Position numbers and translations under genes: made by a program
Part shown: positions 276-20,467 of the stretch, piece after piece
Layout: every line of letters begins with the position of its first letter
How positions within the stretch are numbered: position 1 is the stretch's first letter
Notes under the pieces: generated by a model
What the model was told of the DNA's origin: nothing
Seen by the model: only the letters and a program-made list of their open reading frames with translations
Database searches by the model: none
Virus record (IMG/VR): IMGVR_UViG_3300046680_000151
Coordinates: 1 to 20,467 of that record
DNA: 20,467 nucleotides
Source of the DNA: a virus
Strand: one strand, 5' to 3'

Positions 276-2623
276 CACTGTTGCCCCTGTTGTAGAGCGC
301 GCGGCGATTTCATCACCATGATCTTGCCGTCAGCAAGGTGATAAAGCGTGCCGGGCCGAACCTCGTGTTCCTGCGCCCATTGGATGCGTCGTTGCGACCA
401 CTCAGGGCTGCTGTCGGTCCAGTGCGCGGTTAAGTCCGCAGGCACGGCTGGCACGAAGGGCTTTTGCTTTGCATCGGCAGTATCCATGGCGTCGCCATAG
501 TTCTTGCCGCGACTCATTTCCTTCTGAACGTCAGAGGAAAACCTCTGCTTTGCCTGATAGGCTTGCTGGAGGTAGCCGACTGCTGCGCTGCGTGTGTCCT
601 GGTCCATCCATTCGGTCGGCCCCATGCGCTCGATAAAATTAAGGTCTCGGTCGGACAGCGAACCCATCGCCATTCCTTGGCGCAGCGTCTTCACCAGGTT
701 GTTGATGCCGCCGCGCAGCAACTGCACGCCGCCAGTGTCGCTTAACGGCATGCCAAGCTGGCCTAGCGTTTCAGCGATGGTCTTGTCACTGCCTGGCACC
801 TTGGTGGTTTGCAACCATCCAGGCTGCCCGAAGCCATCCGAGATAGCGCGGAACCCTGCTAGTTGAGCCACAACATCACGGGAGTCGGCTTGCTCTTTCT
901 GGGCTGTTTTCAACCCTTCCAGGTTGGCAGTGTTGGTAACCTGCTCCTTGTTCGTCACGCGCTGTTGGTCCGCTTGGATGTTGGCAAGCCTTACTGCCTG
1001 CTCTCCCTCCTGCGTCTTCAGCGCGACGGCTGCCGCACGATCCGCTGCGGCTTTCTCATCCCCCTGCTTGCGCTGCATCTCAGCGTCATACAGTTGCCGC
1101 TGGGTATCCAGCGCGTTCTTCTGCGCGGCCTGCTGCAGCTCCAGTGACTTGGCCTGCGCGTCCTGCTGCAGCTTGTTCACCGCCTGGGTAGCGGTGTTGT
1201 AGTCGGACAGCGACTTGTTCGGATCGCCGCCGCGTCCGGCGCGTGCCAGCGAGAGCTGCTGGGCGGCCGCGGCCTGCGCTGCCCTGGCCTCGGCCAGACC
1301 GGGCGGCGTCACCGTGTAGTCGGCGGCGTTGATGGCGATCGGATGCTGCGCCTGGAACTGCTCGAACGTCAGCTCACCGGGGGCGGCTGGCGCGGCAGCA
1401 GAAGGCGCCGTTGCGTCGGGGGCGGTTGATGGTGCGGCAGGGGCGGCAGGGCTGCCAGGAGGCGCCCCAGGGCCGGCAAACCGCGTCCCTGAAGGCGATG
1501 GTGCGGCAGAAGCCGTGCCTGTGCCACCTCCAAGTTGCTGCTGAAGTTGCAACGCGGTAGCCGAACGACGCTGCATCTCAGCCATCGTATCTTTCGGTCG
1601 CAGATAATATTGCGAGACCGCGGCGGCCTTGGCGGCTGGCCCTTGTGCCTGGCCAATCTGCGCCGATGCTGACGCCTCGCTGCCCTTTAGTTCGCGCGTC
1701 ACGAAATCAAGTTGTTCGTCGAGAGGAGAGCCGTCAGGCGGATGGCCGTATGCGTCGGTATATGCTTGCAGGCGCGGTCCAGACCACTGGAAGAGACCAG
1801 CGGAGTTGCCTTTATCGCCGCGCCCGGTGGCTGGGTTGGCGACGCTCTCGTGCAGCGCGTTGGCTGCGAGGGCTGTGGCCGTGTCAGCATCGATGCCGCG
1901 CTTGATGAGGCCGTCACGCACTGCGGTGGCGTTGTTGAATGCTGCCGGTTCGATTGTTGCCCCAGATGGCGCCGTGGCTACACCACTGCCGCCTGGCTTG
2001 CCGGCCCCCGTCGCAGTCCCTGGCACGGCAGGGCCGGCAAGCAATGGATTGGGGATGGTTGCCCCGTACTGCATCTGCAGCAGCGGCATCGCCTCCTTGA
2101 GCCGCTCCAGCTGCAGCTTCTGCTGCTCGAGCTGCCAGTTCTGCTGCGCGCCGAGATAGGACGCCGCCTGTTGCTCGGACCCAGCCTCGCTGCGCTCCGC
2201 GCCCTGGAAGCCCTGCGCCAGGCCGCCAAACATCGGCTTGCCCGGATAGTAGCCCGAGCCCGCCATCAGGCTGGTGCCGAAGTCTCCGAGGGCGCGGATG
2301 CCGGCGCGTTCCCGCTGTGCCGGTGACAATGTGTCGGTGATCGAGCCGCCGGCGAGCGCCATGCCGATCCTGCCGAGCAGGCCCACGATACCGCCCTGCG
2401 CCGGCGTGGTGTCGGGCTTGATTTGCGGCAACGGCGCCTGGAGCAGCGCAAGTTGCTGCCTGATATAGTCCTGCGTCGGATCGGCTGCTGCCGCTGGCGC
2501 GGCGCTTGGTGGTGGCGCAGCAGCGGCGGCTGTAACTCCCCTAGCAGCCAGCGCCGCCTGGATATCCTGCGGCGAGGGGTAGTCCGGAGGCGCTGCCGTC
2601 TGGGTGTCGTCAGGTGCTGCCAT
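275..2623 (-). CDS. Ejection/internal virion protein with lysozyme-like domain (782 aa)
   Basis: Large virion protein expected to be injected with the DNA and to open peptidoglycan locally. The N-terminal ~225 residues are Ala/Pro/Gln-rich with a Gly-rich hydrophobic patch near 79-93. Residues ~228-365 resemble the phage tail lysozyme family: the ANALHES segment holds E259, the likely catalytic acid, followed by GNSAGLFQWSGPR. A Pro/Ala linker (~366-420) and a long charged, Gln/Ala/Lys-rich stretch likely to be coiled coil (~445-590) follow. The C-terminal ~190 residues contain GGINNLVKTLRQGMAMGSLS, a pattern seen in podovirus internal proteins. The start has an AGGA Shine-Dalgarno at 2632-2635, 8 nt upstream. 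It lies 2 nt after the preceding gene. The lysozyme call rests on motif recognition, without an alignment. Confidence 0.8.
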   Translation of the reverse strand: MAAPDDTQTAAPPDYPSPQDIQAALAARGVTAAAAAPPPSAAPAAAADPTQDYIRQQLALLQAPLPQIKPDTTPAQGGIVGLLGRIGMALAGGSITDTLSPAQRERAGIRALGDFGTSLMAGSGYYPGKPMFGGLAQGFQGAERSEAGSEQQAASYLGAQQNWQLEQQKLQLERLKEAMPLLQMQYGATIPNPLLAGPAVPGTATGAGKPGGSGVATAPSGATIEPAAFNNATAVRDGLIKRGIDADTATALAANALHESVANPATGRGDKGNSAGLFQWSGPRLQAYTDAYGHPPDGSPLDEQLDFVTRELKGSEASASAQIGQAQGPAAKAAAVSQYYLRPKDTMAEMQRRSATALQLQQQLGGGTGTASAAPSPSGTRFAGPGAPPGSPAAPAAPSTAPDATAPSAAAPAAPGELTFEQFQAQHPIAINAADYTVTPPGLAEARAAQAAAAQQLSLARAGRGGDPNKSLSDYNTATQAVNKLQQDAQAKSLELQQAAQKNALDTQRQLYDAEMQRKQGDEKAAADRAAAVALKTQEGEQAVRLANIQADQQRVTNKEQVTNTANLEGLKTAQKEQADSRDVVAQLAGFRAISDGFGQPGWLQTTKVPGSDKTIAETLGQLGMPLSDTGGVQLLRGGINNLVKTLRQGMAMGSLSDRDLNFIERMGPTEWMDQDTRSAAVGYLQQAYQAKQRFSSDVQKEMSRGKNYGDAMDTADAKQKPFVPAVPADLTAHWTDSSPEWSQRRIQWAQEHEVRPGTLYHLADGKIMVMKSPRALQQGQQ

Positions 2624-15521: not shown

Positions 15522-16505
15522 TCATTGGTTAAGATCGAAAATTGTGGCATGTGCCTTAGGAGCGGTGGGCCTGATGCACCCCTCGAAAATAACCCCACCC
15601 TGGGAATTATCTCCTGTCTGGGCATAGTCCTGCTGGACTAAATCCCTTTCCGGCAACGGCGCCATCTCGACATAGTCTGTCGACACCATCAGGATTTGAT
15701 GGGCTGGACAGAACCGATCGGGTGCGAGTTGCAGTGTGCCGAAGTTGGTGCGGTAGACATCGACCGCGCCCTGGATGGTCATCTCGCCGGTTGGTGACGC
15801 CTGCACGATGTTCTGGGCCACGATCGGGTTGCCCGTCCCGCCCTGCGACAATGTCGCGAAATAGTTCTTAATATTTCCCGACATGATCCCCAATGTCGGA
15901 TTACCACCGGCCTGCCAGGACTGCTGGATGGCGGCGTTGACGACGTTCAGCGTAAGATCGTAGGGCGTGCCAGCCGTTCCGGCGTTGGAACCGTCACCGA
16001 TCGGCATGACGCCAGCACCGGCACCACGCGCGCCGAATGCGGTATAGCAGGGCAGGCCGCTCATGTGGCGTGGGTCGGTGATGGTGCGTACGAGTGGCGA
16101 GGTGACGGCCAGCTCGAGGTCGCGCTTCACCTCCATGCCGCGTAGGATCATATTGCGATTGTACTCGTCCTCCCCACCGACCACGTCCACGACGCGGAGC
16201 GTGTTGGAGACGCCCACTGTACGGGCGATAATCTGGCAGACGTTGTTCAGGCGGATGGGCTTGATCACCGCCTGCATAACGGCGGTGAAGCCCTCAGGCT
16301 GAGCATTATCTGCCGCAGGATTCAACTCCTGCACGATCCACTCGGTCAGGACTTGTTTGGAGCCGACGCGGGAACATGCTGATACCAGCGGTGTCTCGTC
16401 GGGATCGATACGATAGATGATATCCGCGAGGTCTTCGCGGACGCCGACAGCTGCAGTCTCGATATAAGTGCCTGCGGGAGCGGCTCCCTGTGCGGGAACG
16501 GCCAT
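15522..16505 (-). CDS. Major capsid protein, SU10-type HK97 fold (327 aa)
   Basis: Forms the icosahedral head shell. The N-terminal part shows the SU10/DUF5309-type pattern: GVREDLADIIYRIDPDETPL, then LTEWIVQELNPAADNAQPEG, and an R-L-N-N-V-C-Q-I strand followed by RTVGVSNT. The helix NMILRGMEVKRDLELAV is the expected long spine helix. The C-terminal half (NPTLGIMSGNIKNYFATLSQ, VDVYRTNFGTLQLAPDR, HQILMVSTDYVEMAPL) is the P-domain/E-loop-like remainder. Start choice: the frame opens at ATG 16517, but the third ATG (16505, MAVPAQGAAP) has a GGAG 6 nt upstream, and the related sequence kept in CRISPR spacer 1 conserves only the part from that ATG on. It follows a 428-nt non-coding gap holding the array. 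Confidence 0.9.
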   Translation of the reverse strand: MAVPAQGAAPAGTYIETAAVGVREDLADIIYRIDPDETPLVSACSRVGSKQVLTEWIVQELNPAADNAQPEGFTAVMQAVIKPIRLNNVCQIIARTVGVSNTLRVVDVVGGEDEYNRNMILRGMEVKRDLELAVTSPLVRTITDPRHMSGLPCYTAFGARGAGAGVMPIGDGSNAGTAGTPYDLTLNVVNAAIQQSWQAGGNPTLGIMSGNIKNYFATLSQGGTGNPIVAQNIVQASPTGEMTIQGAVDVYRTNFGTLQLAPDRFCPAHQILMVSTDYVEMAPLPERDLVQQDYAQTGDNSQGGVIFEGCIRPTAPKAHATIFDLNQ

Positions 16506-16511
16506 GTCCAT

Positions 16512-16515
16512 CTCC
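16512..16515 (-). promoter_or_regulatory. Shine-Dalgarno (GGAG) of the capsid gene, inside the spacer 1 look-alike
   Basis: GGAG on the minus strand lies 6 nt before the ATG at 16505 and decides that start over the upstream ATGs. The GAG of this site is the first three positions of the 32-nt sequence matching CRISPR spacer 1, and the ATG at 16515-16517 sits where a type I-E PAM would be. Confidence 0.7.
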
Positions 16516-16717
16516 ATTGCATGGCACGCGCGTAGCTACGCTGCATGCCTGATTGAACCAAATTGCTGGTTCGCAATGGAGCGACTGGAGGTCTGCTCGG
16601 GCGTTTACCGCTTGGTCTTGCGACTGCGGTGCGTGCCGGCGACCAACTTGGTCATCCTCGCGACTACACGGCCCGCCCAGCCGGTTGGTGCAAGCACTCC
16701 TTCGGGCGACGAATGTC

Positions 16718-16752: not shown

Positions 16753-16903
16753 GGTTTCATCCCCGCACACGCAGGGAACACGCTCCCTGTGCGGGAACGG
16801 CCATGGTCTACTCCGGGTCATCCCCGCGCCTGCGGGGAACACGCGTTGCAGGTTGGTGTCGGCCCAGGTTTCGGCGGGTCATCCCCGCGCCTGCGGGGAA
16901 CAC
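16753..16903 (-). CRISPR. Mini-CRISPR array, type I-E-like: three repeats, two 32-nt spacers
   Basis: Repeats at 16875-16903, 16814-16842 and 16753-16781, each 29 nt; spacers at 16843-16874 and 16782-16813, each exactly 32 nt, the type I-E geometry. Read on the minus strand the repeat starts GTGTTCCCCGC and ends GGGGATGACCCG, with a 6-bp stem (CCCCGC/GCGGGG) and loop AGGC, as in I-E repeats cut by Cas6e. The first two repeats are identical; the one at 16753-16781 differs at 7 of 29 positions but keeps the stem (one G-T pair), as expected for the leader-distal end. That sets transcription on the minus strand, the same as the operon. No cas gene is present in the window, so processing and interference would need host Cas proteins. 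Spacer 1 (16782-16813) matches 16483-16514 in the capsid gene start at 28/32. Spacer 2 has no good match in the window. Confidence 0.93.
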
Positions 16904-16909
16904 GCTTCG

Positions 16910-16937
16910 TATATACTCCAACCGGTTCATGGATCAA
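16910..16937 (-). promoter_or_regulatory. Candidate promoter/leader of the mini-array
   Basis: On the minus strand TTGATC (16932-16937, overlapping the scaffold stop codon) and TATATA (16910-16915) are 16 nt apart, and the first repeat begins 6 nt after the -10-like element. Only 30 nt separate the scaffold gene from the array, so any leader is very short. Each hexamer matches consensus at four positions; read-through from the structural operon is an equally possible source of crRNA. Confidence 0.35.
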
Positions 16938-18091
16938 TACCGGGTGCTGCCGTTGGCGTTGGAGCGTCGTGCGCTGAGCAGGGCGGCGGCGTTGCGGGCA
17001 TTGGGCCGTGCCTCGAACGCCTGCTCCATGGCCTGCACCTGGGCGGCGGCGGCTGGTGGCGGGCGCACGCCACGCACCTGTGCGGTCTGTACTGGCTGCG
17101 GTGCCCTGGTCTTGGCGCCCTCCAGCATCCTATCCCACATCATCGCTTTCATCATGCTCTCGACGTGGCGCGGGTCGGACAGCCCCTGGAGCTCCTGGCG
17201 GGTGTAACCGCCCTTGCTTTCGGCCCAGCGGGCGATATCGCGCTGCACGGTCGAGCGCATCGCGTCATCGCGCCAGAACTCGTACTTTTCGCTCAGCATT
17301 TTGTTGCCGGCCTCGACCTGCTGCGACATCGCCCTTTCGTAGGCTTGCTGCTGGAGTTGGGTGAGGCTGCCCAGACGTTGTTGCTCAGCCGTAGCCTGCT
17401 GGTAGGCGGCGAATTGGCGGAGATAGCCCTGCGGGTCGCTTTCGATCAGGCCGGGGTCTGGCGGGGTCGCTCCCTGGAGCCGCTCACCAAGCTTCGCGAG
17501 TTCCGGCTGGATATGGGGCAGCACGGTGGCGAGTGCCTCGGCCTGCTGCTGCAGCTGCTGGCGCTGCTGGGCTAAATCCTGGGTCTTGCGGGTGTAGTCC
17601 GCGGCCATGCCCATGGCGGTGCGGATTTGGGCTGCGGTGACGCGGTGTCCGTCGATCGTATAGACGCCGTCGGTTGCCCCTTCGGTGGGGGCACCCTCGG
17701 CCGGTGCTGGCGCCGCTCCCTGCTCGAGCCCCAGCGCCTTGGCGATGGTGTCGTAGCTGTCCCTTGGGCTGTCCCTTGGGCTGTCCCTTGGGCTGTCGGT
17801 GGGGGTGGTGGGCGCTGCGGGTTTGGACTCTACCGGCGCCGTAAGCTGTCCGGGCGGCCCTGCGGGGGCTGGAGAGGGGTTGAGGCGTGCTGTCGGCTGC
17901 CCCTGCCCCTGCGCCTCGCGTGCGGTCTCCTGGCGGCGTCTGGCGAGCAGCCTGCCGGCATCGGAGAGGCTGATGCTTTCCTGCGACGCTGGCGCTGGGG
18001 CGTTGACGACGTTGGTGTTGGTTGCCGGTGCCGGGGTGGCCGGCTGGGCTGCTGCCGGTGCGGCAGGCGCGGATGGGCTACTCTCACTCAT
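16934..18091 (-). CDS. Capsid scaffold-like protein (385 aa)
   Basis: Guides head assembly and leaves or is cut out on maturation, by position between portal and capsid genes and by composition. The first ~140 residues are disordered Ala/Pro/Ser/Thr-rich, with a DSPR repeat. A short folded motif follows (GVYTIDGHRVTAAQIRTAMG, then ADYTRKTQDLAQQ), well known in podovirus scaffold-like proteins. A long Gln-rich coiled coil spans roughly 175-270, then a helical segment with YEFWRDDAMRSTVQRDIARW and MMKAMMWDRMLEGAKT. The basic C-terminus (LLSARRSNANGSTRY) could bind the capsid inner face. A GAGGA lies ~7 nt before the ATG. It starts 9 nt after the previous gene, and the mini-CRISPR array begins 30 nt after its stop. 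Confidence 0.8.
   Translation of the reverse strand: MSESSPSAPAAPAAAQPATPAPATNTNVVNAPAPASQESISLSDAGRLLARRRQETAREAQGQGQPTARLNPSPAPAGPPGQLTAPVESKPAAPTTPTDSPRDSPRDSPRDSYDTIAKALGLEQGAAPAPAEGAPTEGATDGVYTIDGHRVTAAQIRTAMGMAADYTRKTQDLAQQRQQLQQQAEALATVLPHIQPELAKLGERLQGATPPDPGLIESDPQGYLRQFAAYQQATAEQQRLGSLTQLQQQAYERAMSQQVEAGNKMLSEKYEFWRDDAMRSTVQRDIARWAESKGGYTRQELQGLSDPRHVESMMKAMMWDRMLEGAKTRAPQPVQTAQVRGVRPPPAAAAQVQAMEQAFEARPNARNAAALLSARRSNANGSTRY
17757..17797. repeat. 12-bp tandem repeat in the scaffold-like gene
   Basis: Three exact copies of ctgtcccttggg plus a partial fourth (ctgtc) encode repeated Asp-Ser-Pro-Arg units in the disordered N-terminal part. The unit keeps frame, so copy number can vary without breaking the protein. 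Confidence 0.9.
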
Positions 18092-18100
18092 GGTACATCC

Positions 18101-18373
18101 TCATTCAAACCGCCGCCCATCGGTCTCGCGCTGGTTCTGCAGCAGGGCGGTATCGAGGCGTGAGCGCATCTCGGTCGCGAGGTGATCGATGGCCCGCGCC
18201 AGGTTGCGGGCGTCCTCGCGCTCGCGGACATCCGTACCATGCACTGCCGTCTGCACCGCGCCTTCCCGAATGAACGTGAGCATGTCCATCAGCTCGCGGT
18301 CCTGCAGCAGGCGGTGGGCTTCGCCGCCGCGGCGCTGGATCTCGTAGCGTTCCTCGCGGGAGAGGTCGCTCAC
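18101..18373 (-). CDS. Hypothetical helical phage protein (90 aa)
   Basis: Highly charged, almost entirely helical-looking protein starting MSDLSREERYEIQRRGGEAH and containing NLARAIDHLATEMRSRLDTA, likely a coiled coil. There is no domain I can name. It starts with an ATGA overlap on the 49-aa gene and ends 9 nt before the scaffold-like gene. Similar-sized helical proteins occur between portal and scaffold genes in podoviruses; a head-assembly helper is a guess from this position. Confidence 0.7.
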   Translation of the reverse strand: MSDLSREERYEIQRRGGEAHRLLQDRELMDMLTFIREGAVQTAVHGTDVREREDARNLARAIDHLATEMRSRLDTALLQNQRETDGRRFE

Positions 18374-18774: not shown

Positions 18775-20467
18775 CTATTGCCCTGGTTGTGGTGGCTGTG
18801 CGCCGGGCCGCGGCAATGCCGGCCCCCCGGGTCCGAACAGTGACTTCGCCGCGGCGTTGGCAGCGATGTTGCCATATGCACTGGGCATCTGCCCCTGCAT
18901 CAGCGCCTGGCGGGTGGCCATCGCCTGGGCCGGATTGAACGAGCCGGCGGGCGGGCCCATCGGTTGCTGTGGGCGTGGCGGCACCATGGATGGCCCTGGC
19001 GCCCCTTGGGGCATCCCTGGCGGTCGTGGCGGCCCTTGGGGCGGCTGACCAGGCGGGGGGCCTGCCGTGGCTGGCATCTGCGGGCTGGTGGGCGGCGGCA
19101 GATTGCCGAGCAGCTGGATCCCCGGCACCTTGCTGGCCATGGCCTGCTGGAACTCGGTGAGCGACGGCACGGGGGTGCCGAACTGGGCCCCGGCGATCCA
19201 GGTCTTGGTCCAGGCATCGAGCGCCGCCTGATCCCGCTTCAGGTCATCATCGGTCAGCATCTGCGCGCGTTTGGTTTGTTCTGACGCCCGATCGTTCTCG
19301 ACATCGGCAGCGGTCTTACCGGCCTGCACCTGGGCGAGGATCAGTGACGGATCGGGCGGTGTCGGTGGTGGCGGCGGCGCCTGGAACCCTGGGGGTAACG
19401 CCTTAAAATACGAGGACACATCGGCAATGTTGGCGGTTTCCAGCATCCGGCTGAGCGTATTCCGGTACTCCGGCACGCCGACCAAGGGATTGGTTAACCC
19501 CTGTGTCTGCATGATCATCTCTTGCTTGCCGGCGATCTGGGCGAGCATCGCCAGCCGTTCCATCGGCATGCCCTTGCCGCCGACATTGACCGAGGTCTGC
19601 CACATGACGCCGAGCGCCCGCGGATCGATCGGCACCCATTGCCCGCGGATACGATAGACGTTGGGTCGGTCCTGATGCCGCGCCATCATTCTCAACAGCC
19701 CGCTATACAGCGGCGCCAGCCCGGTCTCGGCCAGCGTGCGTGCCATCATGTCGAGCCGGTCCTGCGCGGCCGAGGTCTGCGCCGACACGGCCACGGGTGC
19801 CGTGCTCTGCAACTCGTCCACGGTGAGGCCCTGCGAAGCTCGCGTGATGCCTGTCCGTGACTCCCGGATCGCCTCCAGCGCCTGCATCATGTTGAGCGCG
19901 GCCTCGCCCGTGTAGGGCTTCACCAGCTCGGTGACGGCGCCCGCCTGGGTGGTGCGGATGATCGACCCGATAGCCGTTTGTCTGGCGTCCGCGAGGTTGA
20001 CTTGCCCCAGCGTCACCACCGTCCGCGGGAACATGCTCTGGGCTAAACTATCCAGTGTCGCCCGCATCACCCGGCTTTCCACCCGCTGCAGGTCCATCAC
20101 CATGTCGGCCTGCGAATAGCCGATCAGCCGCCCGGGCTCCCTGTAGGGGGTGAAACAAGCGAGCGGGATCTCATCCACCCGCTCCCACTGGATCATCCTG
20201 GTGGCATTGCCCAGCATGTGGACGTGGATGAGTTCCGCTTTATGGTCGTTATCCGTGTCGCAGCGTATCCAGCCTTCCGCGTAGCGACAGATGCCCATAC
20301 TGCGGTCACCTGGGGGCGACGGCTTGATGTTGTGCCCCTGGGCTGGGTTGCGGGCGATCATCTCGCGGCGCTGCTGCGGCCGCATCATGGTATCGCAGTA
20401 GGCGAGGATCTTGTCCTCCGGCAGTCCCATCTCGATCAGGTCGCTGGCGGGCACATCGCGCACATGG
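18775..20467 (-). CDS. Portal protein, P22/SU10-like, N-terminus beyond window edge
   Basis: Forms the dodecameric DNA channel at the head vertex. The frame is open to the right edge; the first in-window start codon is a GTG at 20463, but codons continue upstream and the family is much longer at the N-terminus, so it is treated as 5'-truncated. Recognisable parts: an ELIHVHMLGNATRMIQWERV strand pair, PLACFTPYREPGRLIGYSQA followed by DMVMDLQRVESRVMRATLDS (clip/stem region), then EAIRESRTGITRASQGLTVD, the conserved helix-turn of P22-type portals, and MPMERLAMLAQIAGKQEMIM. The last ~110 residues are Pro/Gln/Gly-rich and probably disordered inside the head. The terminase genes are presumably just right of the window. 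Confidence 0.85.
   Translation of the reverse strand, partial: HVRDVPASDLIEMGLPEDKILAYCDTMMRPQQRREMIARNPAQGHNIKPSPPGDRSMGICRYAEGWIRCDTDNDHKAELIHVHMLGNATRMIQWERVDEIPLACFTPYREPGRLIGYSQADMVMDLQRVESRVMRATLDSLAQSMFPRTVVTLGQVNLADARQTAIGSIIRTTQAGAVTELVKPYTGEAALNMMQALEAIRESRTGITRASQGLTVDELQSTAPVAVSAQTSAAQDRLDMMARTLAETGLAPLYSGLLRMMARHQDRPNVYRIRGQWVPIDPRALGVMWQTSVNVGGKGMPMERLAMLAQIAGKQEMIMQTQGLTNPLVGVPEYRNTLSRMLETANIADVSSYFKALPPGFQAPPPPPTPPDPSLILAQVQAGKTAADVENDRASEQTKRAQMLTDDDLKRDQAALDAWTKTWIAGAQFGTPVPSLTEFQQAMASKVPGIQLLGNLPPPTSPQMPATAGPPPGQPPQGPPRPPGMPQGAPGPSMVPPRPQQPMGPPAGSFNPAQAMATRQALMQGQMPSAYGNIAANAAAKSLFGPGGPALPRPGAQPPQPGQ

Follow-up and report, generated by a model that had tools for sequence, protein, structure and literature searches.

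A cas-less type I-E mini-CRISPR array in an SU10-like tailed phage, very probably directed against sibling phages

The window analyzed here, a 20,467-nt stretch of DNA from the IMG/VR virus record IMGVR_UViG_3300046680_000151 whose positions serve as coordinates below, carries on its minus strand an array of three clustered regularly interspaced short palindromic repeats (CRISPR) and two 32-nt spacers, located in the interval between a head-scaffold gene and an SU10-type major capsid gene. The complete record containing the window (G001, 41,314 bases) is probably a complete genome because it has a 110-base terminal repeat. The array is very likely a virus-borne, cas-less type I-E mini-CRISPR array, used by this lineage of SU10-like tailed phages against their siblings, and by its sequence it belongs with the virus-borne mini-CRISPR arrays of interviral conflict, a known kind. 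Until now, the best examples of viruses that turn such arrays on one another came from archaea. Here, a single data set on a natural family of tailed bacteriophages combines perfect targets, correct protospacer-adjacent motifs (PAMs), reciprocity, changed spacers behind a common leader, and the immune allele of the carrier, and the mechanism is open to direct testing with a standard type I-E system. The repeat positions and the degenerate terminal repeat assign the array to the minus strand and make spacer 2 the leader-proximal and spacer 1 the leader-distal one. Its features and surroundings, including the site resembling spacer 1 in the phage itself, are as follows (crRNA, CRISPR RNA).

16904-16934, minus strand: leader-like segment abutting the first repeat; by alignment, the 35 nt immediately preceding the first repeat (starting TATTGATCCATGAACC...) are common with array I' of G011/G012
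16875-16903, minus strand: repeat 1, leader-proximal, GTGTTCCCCGCAGGCGCGGGGATGACCCG; hairpin of -15.6 kcal/mol, z -2.8
16843-16874, minus strand: spacer 2 (sp2), leader-proximal, CCGAAACCTGGGCCGACACCAACCTGCAACGC; matches the NusG-like gene of relatives
16814-16842, minus strand: repeat 2, of the same sequence as repeat 1
16782-16813, minus strand: spacer 1 (sp1), leader-distal, GAGTAGACCATGGCCGTTCCCGCACAGGGAGC; matches the capsid start of relatives
16753-16781, minus strand: degenerate terminal repeat, GTGTTCCCTGCGTGTGCGGGGATGAAACC; hairpin kept
16483-16514, minus strand: self protospacer-like site, GAGATGGACATGGCCGTTCCCGCACAGGGAGC (crRNA strand); 28/32 to spacer 1, with mismatches only at crRNA positions 4, 5, 7, and 8 (seed)
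16515-16517, minus strand: ATG PAM of the self site, read 5'-ATG at 16517-16515
15522-16517, minus strand: SU10-type major capsid protein gene (Pfam PF17236, 8e-61)
16934-18091, minus strand: head scaffolding protein gene, upstream (phrog_3927, 1.6e-24)

Relatives were collected by searching the viral collection with the capsid, which gave 78 related loci, and the whole records were then searched with every spacer of the family. A perfect 32/32 site for spacer 1, together with an ATG PAM, was found at the capsid start in seven IMG/VR contigs (L005, L007, L008, L011, L012, L029, and L076), two of which are the near-identical records G011 and G012 of one phage. Nine further relatives had the seed intact, one matching at 31/32 and eight at 30/32, and an independent pattern scan of the whole collection returned those seven perfect-site contigs and L013 (31/32). 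A sequence-only reading of the window had proposed that spacer 1 came from a near relative and matches its capsid gene, and had called for a search for phages with a perfect protospacer there, taking the lack of any such relative as a refutation; these seven contigs support the proposal. A chance origin of the match was ruled out, as the best match of 48 shuffled spacers across ~1.19 Mb of DNA from related phages was 23/32.

The self site of the window phage was recomputed, and the coordinates and the count of 28/32 given by the same reading were exactly reproduced; the restriction of the four mismatches to the seed was confirmed on the minus strand, as was the flanking ATG PAM. The seed region of spacer 1 lies between a Shine-Dalgarno-like GGAG (16515-16512) and an ATG at 16505-16503. 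It is the ATG at 16505 (ATGGCC), and not that at 16517, that is probably the true capsid start, since an in-frame TAG follows the upstream ATG in relatives that bear the alternative allele, and the sequence between GGAG and the start ATG may be freer to vary. Given a self site that spans the Shine-Dalgarno and start region next to a valid PAM, a spacer-1 crRNA might be thought to guide Cascade onto the capsid start of its own carrier for repression. Such self-regulation is extremely improbable, however, since all four mismatches fall within the seed, where type I-E binding tolerates mismatches least, the perfect sites are in siblings, and spacer 2 is aimed elsewhere.

The GAGATGGACATGG seed allele of the window phage was found too in G006, G009, G010, G024, and G027. 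Around the spacer-1 site, the window phage agrees with G007 at every informative position between -161 and -69 and also at +35, +50, and +59, while from -31 to +7 it agrees with G009, bar one small indel. This pattern is consistent with recombination that placed a short patch of the second allele over the seed in a G007-like background. The claim of the sequence-only reading that the carrier escapes through seed mismatches was therefore retained as to the mismatched self site and amended as to its nature: the self-mismatch is better described as a different standing allele in a short mosaic patch than as four new seed mutations, because the allele occurs in five other records.

Further mini-arrays were found across the phage family. 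Array I is that of the window in G001 (spacers sp2 and sp1), and array I' of G011/G012 (spacers A, B, and C) occupies the same genomic place. Array II is located at 10.4 kb in G001 (spacer E), array III in G009, G010, and G052 (single spacer X9), array III', the second mini-array of the G011/G012 phage, carries spacer X11, and array IV is found in G051 (spacer F). The spacers are 32 nt long, with one of 33 nt, and number 1-3 per array. G009 and G010 are near-identical records of one phage, as G011 and G012 are of another, and each pair comes from different samples. An assembly artefact was ruled out on finding the same arrays in independent records (G011/G012; G009/G010/G052), and the arrays are regarded as real because they recur in records from different samples. 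The repeat variant GTGTTCCCTGCGTCAGCGGGGATG terminates array II in G001, array III' in G012, and array IV in G051, that is, at three genomic sites in different phages, which suggests either that the arrays had one source or that the cassette has moved.

Arrays I and I' have the 35-nt leader and the first repeat in common, with a single base difference at the junction, and share no spacer; the aligned genome parts of G001 and G012 are ~84% identical. A scan of the viral collection found the leader core pattern in only three viral contigs, every one an array carrier. A host array that had been acquired by recombination and no longer had a function could present a degenerate terminal repeat like that in the window and a leader unlike the bacterial leaders seen. 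This explanation is very improbable, since G001 and G012 have kept the same leader and first repeat with wholly different spacers, which argues for turnover and not decay, and the spacers match siblings and not random DNA.

The best target of sp2 was a 31/32 match in the NusG-like gene of G002, with an AAG PAM and a mismatch only at position 6, a position that is unpaired in the type I-E Cascade; the match in G012 was 28/32. A NusG domain was detected in the window phage's own ortholog of this target. Spacer A of G011/G012 matched G001 at 32/32 with an ATG PAM (G001:36233), within a small gene for a probable membrane protein. Because spacer A matches G001 and sp1 matches G011/G012, in both cases at 32/32, G001 and G012 target each other at the level of their sequences; the arrays, the perfect and near-perfect targets with their PAMs, this reciprocity, and the common leader followed by different spacers can all be read directly from the records. 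The target of spacer E matched at up to 28/32 with the seed intact and an AAG PAM, that of X11 at 29/32 with an AAG PAM in the portal gene, and that of X9 at 26/32 with an ATG PAM (ATA in some relatives). Two sites resembling the latter two spacers lie in the window phage.

18273-18304, plus strand: site resembling X9 (spacer of G009/G010/G052); 26/32, ATG PAM, one seed mismatch
19097-19128, minus strand: portal-gene site resembling X11 (spacer of G011/G012); 27/32, AAG PAM

Spacers C and F gave weak matches only, at orthologous places. Six of the nine family spacers (sp1, sp2, E, A, X9, and X11) therefore have their best target beside an ATG or AAG PAM, and both are consensus interference PAMs of the Escherichia coli type I-E system (PMC6568314). 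The carriers' own sites were poorer: the best self sites, out of 32, were 28 for sp1 with the mismatches in the seed, 22 for sp2, 20 for E, 19 for X9, and 25 for X11, and that of A was absent (20). For sp1, sp2, and E, the orthologous site of the window phage is accordingly mutated or absent; the self site of sp2 has the seed intact save position 6, and its mismatches lie in the PAM-distal half.

The 29-nt repeat, the Cas6e-type hairpin, the 61-nt period, and the AAG/ATG-type PAMs are those of type I-E. A 26-nt core of the repeat is present in bacterial arrays of Ectothiorhodospira and others, and in L166 it follows directly after type I-E cas6e, cas1e, and cas2e. Folding showed that the expected hairpin was kept in all repeats tested, degenerate ones included. 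Cas1 was absent from the 10 phage records searched, other cas families not having been searched; a phage-encoded CRISPR-Cas system was ruled out on this result, and the arrays would therefore depend on host machinery.

From these data we infer expression of the array, interference by a host type I-E system, and exclusion of siblings. The array, which is in the late-gene sense, would be transcribed from the minus strand, and host Cas6e would process the transcript to give predicted crRNAs from 16753-16903, of 61 nt and with 5' AUGACCCG. These crRNAs would load host Cascade and, with Cas3, lead to destruction of a co-infecting or superinfecting sibling bearing a matching site, spacer 1 being directed at the sibling capsid start and spacer 2 at the sibling NusG-like gene. 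The mismatches in its own sites, which for spacer 1 fall within the seed and for spacer 2 within the PAM-distal half, would spare the carrier. Equivalent arrays are present in siblings, and at least one of them targets the window phage, so that the conflict would be mutual.

Several results weigh against this proposal. No host was found, in that none of 145 spacers, taken from 8 stretches of bacterial arrays that have this repeat core, matched these phages above 25/32. Full-length repeat identity was not seen in bacteria, where the repeats begin CC or CT while those of the phage begin GT, the phage leader is unlike the bacterial leaders seen, and no promoter was called on the leader-like segment. 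On the target side, spacer B had no target in the viral collection, the best matches of E, X9, and X11 fall short of full identity (28, 26, and 29/32), and no perfect target of B, X9, or X11 was present in the whole viral collection. The variant repeat GTTCCCTGCGTCAGCGGGGATG was not found in 399 genomes of one phylum.

The repeats could also be read as an RNA anti-CRISPR (Racr), giving decoy RNAs that sequester host Cas6e or Cascade and so shield the phage, the spacers being incidental. Like the present arrays, Racr comprise phage-encoded type I repeats (PMC10651486); several repeats in the family are degenerate, and at the array II site G052 carries one repeat by itself. Those Racr are, however, solitary repeats without targeting spacers (PMC10651486), whereas targeting spacers are present here. 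Standard-length spacers with PAM-flanked perfect or near-perfect sibling targets and mismatched self sites are unexpected if spacers are incidental, and repeats 1 and 2 are intact, so that this explanation is improbable. The solitary repeat of G052 (L191, about 2557-2574, minus strand), which lies where G001 has array II, is a candidate for an emptied array, an array not yet filled, or an RNA anti-CRISPR.

Several of the spacers in the family target sequence close to their own array. The distance from the array to the carrier's orthologous site was 268 bp for sp1, 46 bp for E, 163 bp for X9, 1116 bp for X11, and 512 bp for F (a weak match), and the weak match of spacer C lies some 0.15 kb from its array. 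The leader-proximal spacers with known targets (sp2 and A) are 15-18 kb from theirs, and across the six array types (I, I', II, III, III', and IV) the near-target spacers are always leader-distal or the sole spacer. For four of the six well-supported spacers the distance does not exceed 1.2 kb, giving a binomial p of ~1.6e-4 that is indicative only, because the pattern was noticed post hoc and the same sites are used by arrays I and I' and by arrays III and III'. The side of the array relative to the PAM, that is, the side of Cas3 travel, was consistent for sp1, E, X9, and F and not for X11, among few cases.

One interpretation of this proximity, possible but rather unlikely, is that the mini-arrays act as cassettes for RNA-guided homing or for killer-immunity linkage. 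In homing, host Cas3 would cut the array-less locus of the sibling, and with the carrier genome as the repair template the array would be copied together with the immune allele; alternatively, selection would simply hold the immune allele and a killing spacer together. Either RNA-guided homing or such linkage would explain the proximity of the targets. In this small sample, and post hoc, the array adjoins its own target in array-less relatives and the carrier is resistant. Free-standing homing endonucleases (intronless homing) similarly lie near the cleavage site of element-free relatives, with a resistant site in the carrier; they differ in that the array encodes no nuclease, its specificity would be supplied by a guide RNA together with the host nuclease, and its mobility is hypothetical.

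The closest known counterparts are the Saccharolobus portogloboviruses SPV1 and SPV2 (PMC6858448), whose arrays likewise lack cas genes, have a leader, and contain 1-2 spacers. Spacers of these related viruses target each other, the carrier's own loci being mutated or deleted, and the array position is constant while the spacers differ and the targets are near the arrays. Medvedeva et al. 2019 left that closeness unexplained (PMC6858448), and the present family bears on their open question of why spacers target sequence near their own array. Unlike SPV1 and SPV2, the arrays here are of type I-E with AAG/ATG PAMs, occur in tailed bacteriophages of the SU10-capsid type at several sites per family, have up to 3 spacers, and end in degenerate repeats. 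The phage mini-arrays and solitary repeat units of Faure et al. 2019, as summarized in two other papers (PMC6858448, PMC7099407), are also phage-borne, and some of their spacers target adjacent genes of close relatives and not of the carrier. In these summaries they are described without host-type leaders, whereas a leader-like segment unlike the bacterial leaders seen is conserved here in two carriers; reciprocal 32/32 targeting in the present family is a further difference from the arrays as so summarized.

Other elements were noted in the phage and its relatives. Rfam gave no match within the window, and the window capsid gene is without the group I intron (RF00028, 67-73 bits) that lies within the capsid gene of relatives (L024:5685-5915, L028:6921-7150, L030:6914-7147, and L039:6914-7147). 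An Endonuclease VII-type HNH open reading frame (PF02945; 14976-15458, plus strand) lies just past the downstream end of the capsid gene, on the other strand, and resembles a free-standing homing-type nuclease, and a GIY-YIG/NUMOD3 homing-type endonuclease gene is found elsewhere in G001 (L103:8663-9508, minus strand). Finally, two sites that resemble the capsid start, one of each sequence type, are separated by 806 bp (L026:5198 and 6004; L126/L127, G027), possibly reflecting partial duplication of the capsid gene start.
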